Assembly (NCBI GenBank): GCA_025963715.1
Contig: JAOQAG010000001.1
Location: 124,001 to 188,000, forward strand
Source of the DNA: Bacteroidota bacterium
GTDB taxonomy: Bacteria > Bacteroidota > Bacteroidia > 2-12-FULL-35-15
Reading direction: 5' to 3'
DNA length: 64,000 nt
The position numbers and the translations under genes are program-made. Shown one piece after another: positions 2,901 through 47,661 of the stretch; the first letter of the stretch is position 1; every line of letters begins with the position of its first letter. The notes below the pieces were generated by a model. It was given only the letters and a program-made list of their open reading frames with translations, did not search any database and was not told the DNA's origin.

Positions 2901-4127
2901 TTGAATTCAAAACAAATAATAATTACAGGAGGTGGCGCCGCCGGTTTTTTTGCGGCCATCAATACGGCGGAACAGCATCCGGAATGTAGCGTGATCTTGC
3001 TGGAAAAAAGCAGCAAATTGCTTTCGAAAGTACGCGTTTCAGGCGGCGGCCGCTGCAATGTAACACATGCCTGCTTTGATAATGGCTTATTAATAAAACA
3101 TTATCCGCGTGGCGAAAAAGAATTGCGTAATGCATTTAGTCGCTTTAGCACGCAGGATACCGTTAACTGGTTTGAGCAGCGCGGTGTGGCTTTAAAAACG
3201 GAAGCCGACGGGCGTATGTTCCCGGTAACGGATAGTTCCGAAACCATTGTGAATTGCCTGATGAAAGCGGCGGAGCAGGCCAATGTAAGCATCAAACTGA
3301 ATGTGGATATTGAGGAGATCGTTAAAAACAAAGACGATACATTTACGCTAAACGCCAAAGGTGGCGGTACATTCAGCTGTGATAAGCTGGTGATTGCTAC
3401 CGGTGGTAATCCTAAAAGTGAAGCGTATGAATGGCTGCGTAAACTCGGCCATACGGTTGTAAAGCCAATGCCTTCGCTGTTCACATTTAATATTCCTGAT
3501 AACCCGGTAACGCAGCTGATGGGCGTTTCGGTGCCTTTCGCGAAAGTGAAAGTAGCCAGCACCAAACTGGAAACGGAAGGCCCGTTGCTGATCACACATT
3601 GGGGCATGAGCGGGCCTGCTGTTTTAAAAGCATCGGCCTGGGGCGCACGCATCTTGGGCGAAATGGATTATAATTTTATTGCGCTGATCAACTGGCTGCC
3701 AAAGCACACGGACGAAAAGCTGCGCATCGAATTTAATAATCAGCGCGAGGAAAATCCCGCGAAAACGGTGATCAGTAATTGTCCGCTGGAATTGCCAAAA
3801 CGACTGTGGGAATATTTGGTGACTAAATCCGGGATCCCGGAAACTACCCGTTGGGCGGATCTTTCCAAGAAAAATAATAATCAGCTGATGAATAACCTGA
3901 TCAATGATGAATATAAGGTAAAGGGTAAAACCACATTTAAGGAGGAATTTGTGACGTGTGGTGGCATCAATTTAAAAGAGATTGACTTTTCCACTATGGA
4001 AAGTAAAGTGGTGCCGGGTTTGTTTTTTGCGGGCGAAATTATGGATGTGGATGGAGTTACGGGCGGTTTTAATTTTCAGAATGCCTGGAGCGGGGGATGG
4101 ATCGTGGCGCAGAATATCGCTACGTAG
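2901..4127 (+). CDS. HI0933/BaiN-family NAD(P)/FAD-dependent oxidoreductase
   Basis: This 408-residue flavoprotein starts with a TTG codon: the FAD-binding strand IIITGGGAAGFFAA begins at residue 6, leaving no room for a later start. The dinucleotide-binding GGGAAG motif, the family signature SGGGRCNVTH (about 48-57) and a C-terminal FAGEIMDVDGVTGGFNFQ motif place it in the HI0933 (YhiN) family. A few members reduce steroid or bile-acid intermediates, but most have unknown substrates. It is cytoplasmic, with no signal peptide. It is divergent from the lipoprotein gene and followed by a repeat-rich spacer, so it is probably monocistronic. Confidence 0.87.
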   Translation: MNSKQIIITGGGAAGFFAAINTAEQHPECSVILLEKSSKLLSKVRVSGGGRCNVTHACFDNGLLIKHYPRGEKELRNAFSRFSTQDTVNWFEQRGVALKTEADGRMFPVTDSSETIVNCLMKAAEQANVSIKLNVDIEEIVKNKDDTFTLNAKGGGTFSCDKLVIATGGNPKSEAYEWLRKLGHTVVKPMPSLFTFNIPDNPVTQLMGVSVPFAKVKVASTKLETEGPLLITHWGMSGPAVLKASAWGARILGEMDYNFIALINWLPKHTDEKLRIEFNNQREENPAKTVISNCPLELPKRLWEYLVTKSGIPETTRWADLSKKNNNQLMNNLINDEYKVKGKTTFKEEFVTCGGINLKEIDFSTMESKVVPGLFFAGEIMDVDGVTGGFNFQNAWSGGWIVAQNIAT

Positions 4128-4485
4128 CCACAGATTAAAAAATTAAAATTGATTACTCCGATCCGCGTTTAAAACAAATAAAAGTCCACCACATAAGGCA
4201 CAAAGAAACACATAAGAGTTGGGTGTAACATACCAACGTATAATTTTTTACACGCCTTGCCTTATGTGTTTCTTTGTGCCTTATGTGGTGGAAAAAGCAC
4301 GCGGCTTTGCGTTCTCTGCGCCTAAAAAATTTAACCACAAAAGGAACAAAAGAAAGCAAAAGAGCCTCGCCTTATATTTTCTTTTGTTTGCTTTTGTGGT
4401 TCAAAAGACCTACAGCTTTGCGTTCTCTGCGCCTTCTCCGCGAACTTTGCGGTAAAATACCCACAGTATTGTAAATGTTAAAAAT
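4128..4485. repeat. Intergenic CCACATAAGGCAC-family hairpin repeats
   Basis: No gene is seen. A perfect 31-bp inverted repeat has arms at 4186-4216 and 4261-4291, separated by a 44-nt loop. Its left arm begins CCACCACATAAGGCACAAAG. A second, less perfect copy follows (about 4334-4403, with ACCACAAAAGGAACAAAAG opposite CTTTTGTTTGCTTTTGTGGT). Related copies occur at 16077-16567, 19477-19548 and 27360-27392. Confidence 0.85.
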
Positions 4486-4492
4486 AAATAAA

Positions 4493-4517
4493 TGTATATA
4501 CATATAATGTATTTGTA
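4493..4517. promoter_or_regulatory. Operator-like palindrome upstream of marR
   Basis: TGTATATACAT and ATGTATTTGTA are separated by ATA. The sequence matches the perfect palindrome at 5026-5050 in length, spacing and 20 of 25 positions. It sits just upstream of the -7 element (4531-4538) of the MarR gene. Position and similarity suggest an autoregulatory MarR binding site. Confidence 0.6.
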
Positions 4518-4530
4518 TTTATTTTATTTG

Positions 4531-4538
4531 TATCTTTG
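4531..4538 (+). promoter_or_regulatory. TAnnTTTG -7 element of the marR gene
   Basis: TATCTTTG matches the Bacteroidota -7 consensus and lies 19 nt before the ATG at 4557. It overlaps the in-frame TTG at 4536, which argues that the protein does not start there. Confidence 0.6.
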
Positions 4539-4556
4539 TACCATAAATTTAACACA

Positions 4557-5006
4557 ATGGAAATCGGTAAAGAAATAAAACAGGAAAAATTCAGAGACGA
4601 ATACCAGAAACTGGTGATCAATGTTTTTTTTACAAGCAACTGGCTGGGCGCTATACACGCCTGCAGCCTGAAAGCCTACGGTATTTCTCCGCAGCAATTT
4701 AATTTATTACGCATTTTACGAGGACAACATCCAAAACCGGCTACGGTTAATTTATTGATCGACCGGATGCTGGATAAAAATTCGAATGCATCGCGTTTGG
4801 TTGAAAAATTACGCCTGAAAAAATTAGTAGAGCGTGCAACGTGCCAGGATGACAGAAGAGCAGTAAATGTTGTCATTACTCAAAAAGGTCTGGACATGCT
4901 GGAAGAGATCGATAAGCATGATGAAACGCTTACAAAAGAGCTGAAAAACCTTACAGTGAAAGAGGCCGAGCAGTTAAACACACTTCTTGACAAATTGAGG
5001 GGTTAA
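4557..5006 (+). CDS. MarR-family transcriptional regulator
   Basis: This 149-residue regulator has a winged-helix core: SPQQFNLLRILRGQHP, then the recognition-helix region NASRLVEKLRLKKLVER, and a wing DDRRAVNVVITQKG. These are typical of MarR repressors that respond to small molecules or oxidants. An upstream in-frame TTG (4536) lies within the predicted -7 element, so ATG 4557 is preferred. Near-matching palindromes flank the gene, one before its promoter and one before yceI, suggesting it represses itself and the downstream genes. The following genes (YceI, DOPA-dioxygenase-like, isomerase-like, pirin) suggest sensing of quinones, phenolics or electrophiles. That ligand is inference. Confidence 0.88.
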   Translation: MEIGKEIKQEKFRDEYQKLVINVFFTSNWLGAIHACSLKAYGISPQQFNLLRILRGQHPKPATVNLLIDRMLDKNSNASRLVEKLRLKKLVERATCQDDRRAVNVVITQKGLDMLEEIDKHDETLTKELKNLTVKEAEQLNTLLDKLRG

Positions 5007-5025
5007 AAAAATTTGGTATAATATA

Positions 5026-5050
5026 TGTATCTACATATAATGTAGATACA
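5026..5050. promoter_or_regulatory. Perfect 25-bp operator palindrome upstream of yceI
   Basis: TGTATCTACAT, ATA, ATGTAGATACA: two perfect 11-bp arms around a 3-nt spacer. It lies between the marR stop and the yceI start. The same arrangement stands before marR at 4493-4517, so it is probably the binding site of the MarR protein encoded between them. Confidence 0.7.
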
Positions 5051-5122
5051 AGCAATCAGGCATGAATAATTAACAAGCAATAAATAACAATAATTACAAA
5101 CAATTAAAAACCCAAAAACACA

Positions 5123-5665
5123 ATGGAAACAACAAATGATTTGAAAGTATGGACATTGGATCCGGCACACTCAAGTGTACACTTTGCAGTAAAACACATG
5201 ATCGTAAGCAACACAAAAGGTTCGTTCAGTGATTACAAAGTAAATGTAACAACCAAAGGATTGAGCTTTGAAGATGCAAAAATCGAATTGGAAATTGATG
5301 TGAATAGCATCGATACAAAAATGGCTGACCGTGATAATCACTTGCGTGGTGCGGATTTCTTCGATGTGGAAAAATATCCTACGATCAAATTTGTTTCTAC
5401 TTCCATGAAAAAAATCAATGAGGAAGATTACAGCCTGAAAGGGAATATGACCATCAAGGATGTAACGAAAGAGATTGAGTTTAAAGTTAATTATGGCGGA
5501 CAAGTAGTGGATCCATGGGGAAATACCCGTTCGGGATTTACATTGGAAAGCGCTATTGACCGTTTTGATTTTGGTTTGACCTGGAATGCATTGATCGAAG
5601 CAGGTAGTGCGATGGTTGGTAAAACCGTGAAATTGCAGGCAGAGATCGAAATAACAACTAAATAA
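5123..5665 (+). CDS. YceI-family lipocalin-like protein
   Basis: The 180-residue protein spans a full YceI domain, beginning WTLDPAHSSVHFAVKHM and including the family features GSFSDYKV and a central region around NHLRGADFFDVEKYP. YceI proteins form a lipocalin-like beta barrel that can bind long isoprenoid or amphipathic ligands. There is no signal peptide, so this copy should be cytoplasmic, unlike periplasmic E. coli YceI. It follows marR by 116 bp with an intervening perfect palindrome, and it leads the detoxification gene set ending at 7667. A role in binding or buffering a lipophilic quinone-like compound is inferred from context only. Confidence 0.88.
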   Translation: METTNDLKVWTLDPAHSSVHFAVKHMIVSNTKGSFSDYKVNVTTKGLSFEDAKIELEIDVNSIDTKMADRDNHLRGADFFDVEKYPTIKFVSTSMKKINEEDYSLKGNMTIKDVTKEIEFKVNYGGQVVDPWGNTRSGFTLESAIDRFDFGLTWNALIEAGSAMVGKTVKLQAEIEITTK

Positions 5666-5800
5666 TGGCATACCGTTTCTGCGCGCACAGCAAGCCGCAA
5701 ATGCAGGTTTGTGATATTTGAATAAAGGCCTGCTGTGCCTGAAACGGATTTCTTACTTTTAGGGAATTAATAAAAGAAGAAATAAATACAAAAAAATAAA

Positions 5801-6586
5801 ATGGAAGCAAAAAAAAACCTTACACCCGCATTGTTCGTTAGTCACGGTTCCCCGATGAACGCGATCGCACAAAATGCATACACGCAGGATCTGAACAAGA
5901 TCGGAAATGCATTAAAGAATGTAAGTGCGGTGCTGGTGATCTCTGCGCATTGGGAAACAAACGGATTGTTTGTAACCGCTTCGGAAGATCTGGCTACGTA
6001 CCACGATTTCAGAGGTTTTCCGCAAGAGCTGCACGAAGTTGAATATCCTGTAAAAGGCGCATTGAGCCTGATCCCGGAAATTGAAAAATTAATTTTTGAA
6101 GAAGTAAAACAGGATACCAAACGCGGGCTTGATCATGGTGCATGGAGCATGCTGCTGCATTTGTTCCCGGAAAAAAAAATTCCGGTATTGCAGTTGAGCA
6201 TCGACAAAACCCGCTCCTTTGCTGAGCATTTGGAGCTTGCAAAAAAACTGGCGCCTTTGCGTGAAGAAAATATCCTGATCCTGGCAAGTGGTAACATGAC
6301 GCATAATTTTTCGCATTTGAATTTCGGGAATATGGATGCAAAACCTTTTGCATGGGCAATCGAATTTGATGAATTAGTGAAGGATGCATTTTTAAGCGGG
6401 GATGAGCGGGCGCTTGCTGAGATTGATAAAGCGGGTGATCTGTTTAGAATGAACCATCCAAGTCCCGATCATTTTATTCCATTGCTTTATTTAATGGGTG
6501 TAAAAAATGAGAACGACAGAGTACAATTTCCGCACATGAGCTGGCAATACGGAACCATGAGCATGCGGCATATTTTACTGAGCTAG
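5801..6586 (+). CDS. ygiD: 4,5-DOPA dioxygenase extradiol-like protein (LigB superfamily)
   Basis: This 261-residue protein matches the YgiD/DODA family. Conserved metal-site and catalytic histidines are visible in LFVSHGSPMNA (H15), VISAHWET (H50), GLDHGAWSML (H112) and ASGNMTHNFSHL. Characterised relatives open the ring of DOPA-type catechols using a divalent metal, but the natural substrate in most bacteria is unknown. The length is normal for the family. It lies between yceI and the isomerase-like gene, all on the plus strand, and probably belongs to the MarR-controlled unit. The company of a muconolactone-isomerase-like protein and pirin fits aromatic or quinone turnover. Confidence 0.87.
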   Translation: MEAKKNLTPALFVSHGSPMNAIAQNAYTQDLNKIGNALKNVSAVLVISAHWETNGLFVTASEDLATYHDFRGFPQELHEVEYPVKGALSLIPEIEKLIFEEVKQDTKRGLDHGAWSMLLHLFPEKKIPVLQLSIDKTRSFAEHLELAKKLAPLREENILILASGNMTHNFSHLNFGNMDAKPFAWAIEFDELVKDAFLSGDERALAEIDKAGDLFRMNHPSPDHFIPLLYLMGVKNENDRVQFPHMSWQYGTMSMRHILLS

Positions 6587-6642: not shown

Positions 6643-6939
6643 ATGAATCAGTACATGATCACGATAAAACTTCCGAATGAAATTACGGAAGATTTTGTAC
6701 GGTTAATTCCGAAACAACGACAACACATTAATCGCTTGATGGACCAGGGAAAAATAGCGCAGTATTCGCTTTCCATAGACCGCAGCATCGTATGGGTAAC
6801 CATGCAGGCATTGTCGGAGCGCGAAGTGATGGACATTCTCGCGAACTTCCCGCTGATCGGATACATGAAACCGGAAATACAGGAGCTTGCTTTTTTTAAC
6901 AGCGTTTCCAATGAATTACCAAAATTAATAATGAACTAA
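6643..6939 (+). CDS. Muconolactone delta-isomerase-like small protein
   Basis: This 98-residue protein resembles the muconolactone isomerase/dimeric alpha-beta barrel fold. The first strand is YMITIKLP, a helix around FVRLIPKQRQHINRLMDQGK follows, and the pattern then runs YSLSIDRSIVWVTM and MDILANFPLIGYMKPEIQEL. True muconolactone isomerases act in the catechol branch of the beta-ketoadipate pathway, but no other genes of that pathway are present, so the reaction is not assigned. It lies 17 bp before pirin and 56 bp after the dioxygenase gene, consistent with one transcript. Confidence 0.68.
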   Translation: MNQYMITIKLPNEITEDFVRLIPKQRQHINRLMDQGKIAQYSLSIDRSIVWVTMQALSEREVMDILANFPLIGYMKPEIQELAFFNSVSNELPKLIMN

Positions 6940-6956: not shown

Positions 6957-7667
6957 ATGAAAACTGTTTTTCATAAATCAACTGAGCGCGGACATGCTGA
7001 CCATGGCTGGCTTAACGCACATCACTCATTCAGCTTTGCCAGCTATCACGATGAATCGAAAGTACATTTCGGATTGCTGCGGGTATTGAACGATGATATT
7101 GTTGCTGCCGGAATGGGTTTTGGATCGCACCCGCATGATAATATGGAAATTGTAACGATCCCGTTGAGCGGAACGTTGGAACACCGCGACAGTATGGGAA
7201 ATGTCGGCGTGATTCGTCCGAACGAGATCCAGGCGATGAGTGCCGGATCGGGATTGACGCACTCTGAATACAATCATTCAAAAACGGAACCGATCAACTT
7301 ATTGCAGATCTGGGTGTTTCCGAAAGAACGCAATATCAAACCGCGTTACGATCAGAAAATATTTTCGGAAGCAGATAAAGCCGGAAAATTTAAAACCATT
7401 GTGGCGCCTGTTAAAGCGGACGATGTAATGTGGATCAACCAGGATGCTTATTTTTCACTGGGTAAATTTTCAACAGATACCAAACAGGAATATAAAATGC
7501 AGCATGCCGGAAACGGAAGCTATGTGTTTGTGATCGAAGGAAGCGCCACTATAAACGGACAAAAATTAGGAAAACGCGATGCTTTGGGCGTGTGGGATAC
7601 GGATAAGTTTGAGCTGGAGATCGGCGCCGGGTCCGAGATCCTGATCATTGATGTGCCGATGGAGTAA
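6957..7667 (+). CDS. Pirin-family protein (YhhW-like quercetin dioxygenase)
   Basis: The 236-residue bicupin shows the pirin signature. The N-terminal cupin holds the metal ligands H58 and H60 (GSHPHDNMEI) and H102 and E104 (LTHSEYN). The YhhW-like C-terminal cupin ends in a DALGVWD segment. E. coli YhhW oxidises quercetin in vitro, while other pirins act as redox-sensing cofactors. The complete metal site suggests an active enzyme. It is the last gene of the run from marR, followed by a strong terminator at 7701-7736, which supports a marR-to-pirin transcription unit. Confidence 0.9.
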   Translation: MKTVFHKSTERGHADHGWLNAHHSFSFASYHDESKVHFGLLRVLNDDIVAAGMGFGSHPHDNMEIVTIPLSGTLEHRDSMGNVGVIRPNEIQAMSAGSGLTHSEYNHSKTEPINLLQIWVFPKERNIKPRYDQKIFSEADKAGKFKTIVAPVKADDVMWINQDAYFSLGKFSTDTKQEYKMQHAGNGSYVFVIEGSATINGQKLGKRDALGVWDTDKFELEIGAGSEILIIDVPME

Positions 7668-7736: not shown

Positions 7737-7761
7737 TTTTCATCAAACCAACATAAAAAAA

Positions 7762-7794
7762 ACTGTCATCCCGGGTCAGGCCCGGGATGACAGT
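7762..7794. repeat. GTCATCCCGGG palindromic repeat, copy 1
   Basis: Perfect 14-bp arms (ACTGTCATCCCGGG and its complement) enclose TCAGG. Other copies are at 27237-27263, 27281-27321, 31938-31977, 47632-47661 and 62511-62553. Confidence 0.9.
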
Positions 7795-7862
7795 CAAGAA
7801 AATGAAACTGACAATTAATTAACATTTTGTTCTAAGTGTCCTCAGTGCCTTAGTGGTAAATG

Positions 7863-47631: not shown

Positions 47632-47661
47632 TGTCATCCCGCACCTGTTGCGGGATGACAG
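47632..47661. repeat. GTCATCCCG palindromic repeat, copy 5
   Basis: TTGTCATCCCGCA and TGCGGGATGACAG enclose CCTGT. It lies in the 214-bp gap between the two long paralogues. Confidence 0.88.

Follow-up and report, generated by a model that had tools for sequence, protein, structure and literature searches.

MhqR of Staphylococcus aureus, a quinone-responsive repressor, represses a dioxygenase-containing operon. MepR of the same species has an efflux pump as its target, and two of its dimers can occupy one operator. Regulators of the OhrR/SarZ type and Escherichia coli MarR (Cys80) carry a conserved, possibly oxidant-sensing cysteine, which in OhrR is located near the N-terminus, while HpaR is a regulator of aromatic degradation. 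Autorepression of the kind that we propose here for a MarR protein of a Bacteroidota bacterium is ordinary, and it is the set of controlled genes that may be so far undescribed: in the literature searched, beyond which lay most subscription papers and RegPrecise, we found no description of a MarR-YceI regulon. The locus lies in a window of 64 kb (the whole stretch of DNA that was analysed) and comprises the following features:

4493..4517, + strand: operator 1, imperfect 25-bp palindrome 5' of marR, TGTATATACAT-ATA-ATGTATTTGTA, 8/11 pairs
4531..4538, + strand: Bacteroidota -7 box of the marR promoter, TATCTTTG (consensus from PMC9723704)
4557..5006, + strand: marR, MarR-family regulator of 149 aa, ATG start, Cys96 at the wing turn
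5026..5050, + strand: site 2, perfect 25-bp palindrome between marR and yceI, TGTATCTACAT-ATA-ATGTAGATACA, 11/11 pairs
5123..5665, + strand: yceI, cytosolic YceI-like protein, kept after marR in many relatives
5801..6586, + strand: ligB/DODA-like extradiol dioxygenase gene, probable operon member (Pfam LigB; NCBIfam 4,5-DOPA-extradiol-dioxygenase above cut-off)
6643..6939, + strand: muconolactone-isomerase-like gene, probable operon member (Pfam MIase)
6957..7667, + strand: pirin gene, probable last operon member (Pfam Pirin, Pirin_C_2)

The five genes are consecutive on the + strand, and apart from losses most of the nearest relatives (L005-L024) share their order from marR to pirin. We infer that ligB, the muconolactone-isomerase-like gene and pirin are cotranscribed in the marR operon. 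A long inverted repeat in the gap between yceI and ligB (5673-5747) forms a strong hairpin (-31.2 kcal/mol, z -2.92) that may serve in termination, attenuation or processing within the operon. Upstream of marR, most nearest relatives also have the HI0933-like flavoprotein gene found here at 2901-4127. The gap ahead of marR (4181-4410) shows, by eye, two long inverted repeats with arms at about 4181-4215 and 4257-4291 and at about 4333-4360 and 4378-4404, which look like repeat elements. Two GC-rich palindromes, at 7761-7795 and 47634-47658, have a common outer arm (TCATCCCG...GGGATGA) and possibly represent one dispersed repeat family used as terminators.

We take the ATG at 4557 as the start of marR; the ORF list contains a longer, TTG-started frame from 4536. 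The encoded protein scores 39.3 bits against Pfam MarR_2, above the curated cut-off of 27, and its model (pLDDT 90.2) has a winged-helix fold with wing strands at 91-95 and 103-107; the first-ranked PDB structures matching the model are MarR proteins. It reaches none of the NCBIfam equivalog cut-offs. Sequence and structure comparison place HpaR, MhqR and MftR among its nearest solved relatives, and tblastn in plasmids returned seven distant MarR matches. MhqR (PDB 9qdr, 9smz; E 1.6e-10 by sequence, structure rank 4, about 30% identity) has the same fold, and the LigB-type dioxygenase gene in the operon is reminiscent of the operon under MhqR; however, MhqR has another operator, and YceI and pirin are putative targets only here. 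HpaR (PDB 22oz) provides the best fold match and the best NCBIfam match, and the catechol-type neighbour genes are a further likeness. Its NCBIfam score of 37.4 bits is below the cut-off of 121.2, so the protein is not an HpaR member, and there are no hpa genes among the scanned neighbours of marR. MepR (PDB 4lln) has the MarR fold in common but differs in half-site as well as target; its double occupancy is a possible precedent for two dimers on the 25-bp site. Of 80 aligned proteins, 77 share Cys96 where the wing turn begins, a position different from the N-terminal region of the OhrR cysteine. A redox or electrophile role for Cys96 is conceivable, and the signal might be a quinone or a peroxide; the target genes and the similarity to MhqR and HpaR, by analogy, would favour a quinone.

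An earlier note on this DNA had described a perfect palindrome of 11-3-11 geometry ahead of yceI and a like-spaced site ahead of marR, and both are confirmed. No other 11-3-11 palindrome of the window reaches the 11/11 pairs of the former, and 20 first-order Markov copies contained none that does. Those with 8/11 pairs number 113 in the window, compared to a mean of 105 in the Markov copies, so the marR site is unremarkable by symmetry alone. The two sites have 20 of their 25 bases in common, in register, and a tolerant motif search of the 64 kb (at most three mismatches over 20 fixed bases) matched only these two, with no match in 100 shuffles.

Conservation was assessed with the motif TGTN4ACATN3ATGTN4ACA (14 fixed bases), requiring at least 12/14 within 200 bases 5' of marR. 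A scan of genome contigs kept 80 MarR relatives with 53-81% identity and, together with the window, 79 of 81 loci had a usable upstream region. The motif is located 5' of marR in 66 of the 79 loci (0.28% of Markov shuffles) and is exact in 39 (no shuffle), the p-values not being independent because the loci are related. Among the remaining 13, the site in L039 and L050 precedes yceI as the first gene of a yceI-pirin-marR run, in L019 and L065 it is just 3' of marR, and in L036 it lies at other positions of the locus, one of them before a second marR copy; eight (L033, L043, L054, L056, L060, L066, L074 and L077) have no site at 12/14 in the locus. Across these related rows, arm-internal symmetry, a possible mark of two bound dimers, amounts to 36 for the left arm against 26.2 in column shuffles (p 0.005), and to 36 against 36.5 for the right arm.

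Operator 1 was claimed to overlap the approach to the marR -7 element. The sequence TAnnTTTG, described in PMC9723704 as the -7 box of flavobacterial sigma-A promoters (at -12 to -5), occurs once on the two strands of 3177-6362, at 4531-4538 before marR, and operator 1 ends 13 bases upstream of it. Among the 66 marR sites, TAnnTTTG starts on the base directly after the operator in 39 and 11-13 bases past it in 17, the window included; three show other offsets and seven lack it, the chance level in shuffled downstream sequence being 2.5%. Many yceI sites in other places likewise adjoin TATATTTG. A protein on a site adjoining the -7 box would cover about -37 to -13, and operator 1 of the window is at about -50 to -26. 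Given that the box follows the site immediately in 39 of 66 cases, repression by occlusion of RNA polymerase is likely. Generic scans for sigma-70 promoters and terminators gave counts close to those of shuffles (14 vs 10.7 and 5 vs 3.6).

We also searched for the exact pattern TGTN4ACATNWAATGTN4ACA, with the reversed pattern as a control; it is strict and misses even the marR site of the window. It was found in 18 of 59 genomes (own, relatives and others of the class), the control in none of the 59. Within the genus of the window it occupies 19 places: 14 before a secreted YceI gene on a contig stretch other than that of marR, three before a cytosolic yceI and two without a plausible target. 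In a set of 295 Bacteroidia genomes, which overlaps with the former, there are 59 exact sites in 46 genomes compared to two control matches. Twenty-two immediately precede the gene of a MarR relative (10 by coordinates only), 26 precede yceI (assigned by BLAST against the two YceI proteins of the own genome), three precede pirin, one an Oxidored_FMN ene-reductase and one a SnoaL-ligB pair, adding up to 53 of the 59. One more (G245:C135) closely follows a marR near the end of a contig, and five (L108, L113, L150, L161, L163) have no plausible target. Pirin directly follows a motif site in L164, L165 and L168, and YceI is the most constant target beside marR. These downstream genes support the predicted control of detoxification-type genes. 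Genomes with an exact site have a MarR orthologue (E <= 1e-35) in 44 of 46 cases, those without in 75 of 249 (Fisher p 7e-18, relatedness not corrected); conversely, 75 of the 119 genomes holding the orthologue lack an exact site, the pattern being strict. Upstream of the ten other MarR_2 matches of the own genome, no more than 10 of the 14 motif bases were found in 250 bases. Conservation 5' of marR, exact-search counts, co-occurrence with the orthologue and promoter placement all argue strongly for autoregulation and for these sites as MarR operators, much as the earlier note had proposed from sequence.

In the own genome, an exact site precedes the start codon of the secreted YceI gene by 39 bases (C46, L087:4640-5315) and adjoins TATATTTG, which suggests that this unlinked gene is among the targets and that the regulon reaches past the marR locus. 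Matches with two mismatches were as frequent as in the control (36 vs 36) and were dropped as evidence. One of them precedes a nitroreductase gene (C16, L085:5547-6242) and its end overlaps the -7 box TATATTTG; with counts equal to the control, it is promoter placement that points to this unlinked gene, which is probably a target. Two other candidates were set aside as probable chance matches, C4:10159 inside a gene and C5:202303 overlapping an ORF start.

Less clear is the role of the palindrome between marR and yceI. It matches the full motif, but it has no recognisable -7 box (TAnnTTTG) next to it and what relatives conserve is mainly the left arm, so it may be auxiliary. Of 20 relatives in the genus group, 15 have the left arm at 7/7, 21-25 bases past the marR stop, and just two (L005, L007) have the right arm at 7/7. 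Perfect symmetry is thus a feature of the own genome, and the weight that the earlier note had given to it was partly misplaced. In some relatives yceI has gone together with the right arm, and the end of a deletion is a possible cause. With the sole TAnnTTTG in 3177-6362 placed before marR, yceI and later genes may use the marR promoter, and the operon is probably driven from there. One could go further and regard operator 1 as the only working site, with the intergenic palindrome as a relic or auxiliary and yceI read through from the marR promoter. The single -7 box and the poor right arm speak for this; nonetheless, the left arm is maintained with constant spacing to the marR stop, the copy in the window is a full match and part of the right-arm losses go with yceI itself, and we regard this explanation as somewhat unlikely. 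Alternatively, the palindrome could act as an RNA hairpin for stability or processing of the marR-yceI transcript, being able to form an 11-pair stem (-13.2 kcal/mol, z -3.25). Such a stem is not conserved, since most relatives lack the right arm, and elsewhere the motif lies upstream of -7 boxes and hence is not transcribed, making a role as a hairpin instead of an operator highly improbable.

Two further alternatives concern the motif as a whole. Many sites stand before genes unlinked to marR and binding of MarR to the motif is itself a prediction, so a different regulator might recognise it, with marR merely one target among others. Yet the motif is most regular 5' of marR, tracks the presence of the MarR orthologue and is not found 5' of the remaining MarR_2 matches in the own genome, and another regulator therefore seems very unlikely to us. 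Chance palindromes in AT-rich DNA would account for the ordinary symmetry of the marR site, one of 113 in the window, but are contradicted by its conservation (66/79), by the exact searches with their controls (59 vs 2; 18/59 vs 0/59) and by the empty shuffles of the tolerant search, to the point of being negligible.

We are therefore left with both palindromes as putative MarR sites, in a system of operon repression, unlinked targets and release by an electrophilic or quinone-like compound, which is jointly the best explanation and, judging from sequence patterns, a highly probable one. Without inducer, MarR would occupy operator 1 at the -33 region of the marR promoter and block transcription of marR-yceI-ligB-MIase-pirin. 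The second, intergenic site, possibly auxiliary within an operon transcribed from the marR promoter, could contribute through cooperative binding, serve as a roadblock or mask a yceI promoter that has gone unrecognised. The unlinked secreted yceI and the nitroreductase gene would probably also be repressed. MarR would then leave the DNA on sensing an electrophilic or quinone-like compound, through either its ligand pocket or Cys96 of the wing.

Food for speculation is a Bacteroidota-wide electrophile/quinone regulon with YceI at its core, in which one MarR group senses through Cys96 and represses through a 25-bp operator fused to the -7 box, each arm (ATGTATATACAT) binding a dimer. We consider this broader proposal unlikely as a whole, but an arm that can bind a dimer would account for the survival of one arm alone between marR and the gene after it. 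If true, the regulon would include marR, both the cytosolic and the secreted YceI, pirin, nitroreductases, ene-reductases and dioxygenases of the LigB type. The physiological role of the widespread YceI proteins is poorly defined. The conserved operator before yceI, pirin, reductases and marR provides a concrete candidate regulon in Bacteroidia and a testable class of inducers, and its short motif can find targets in unstudied genomes.
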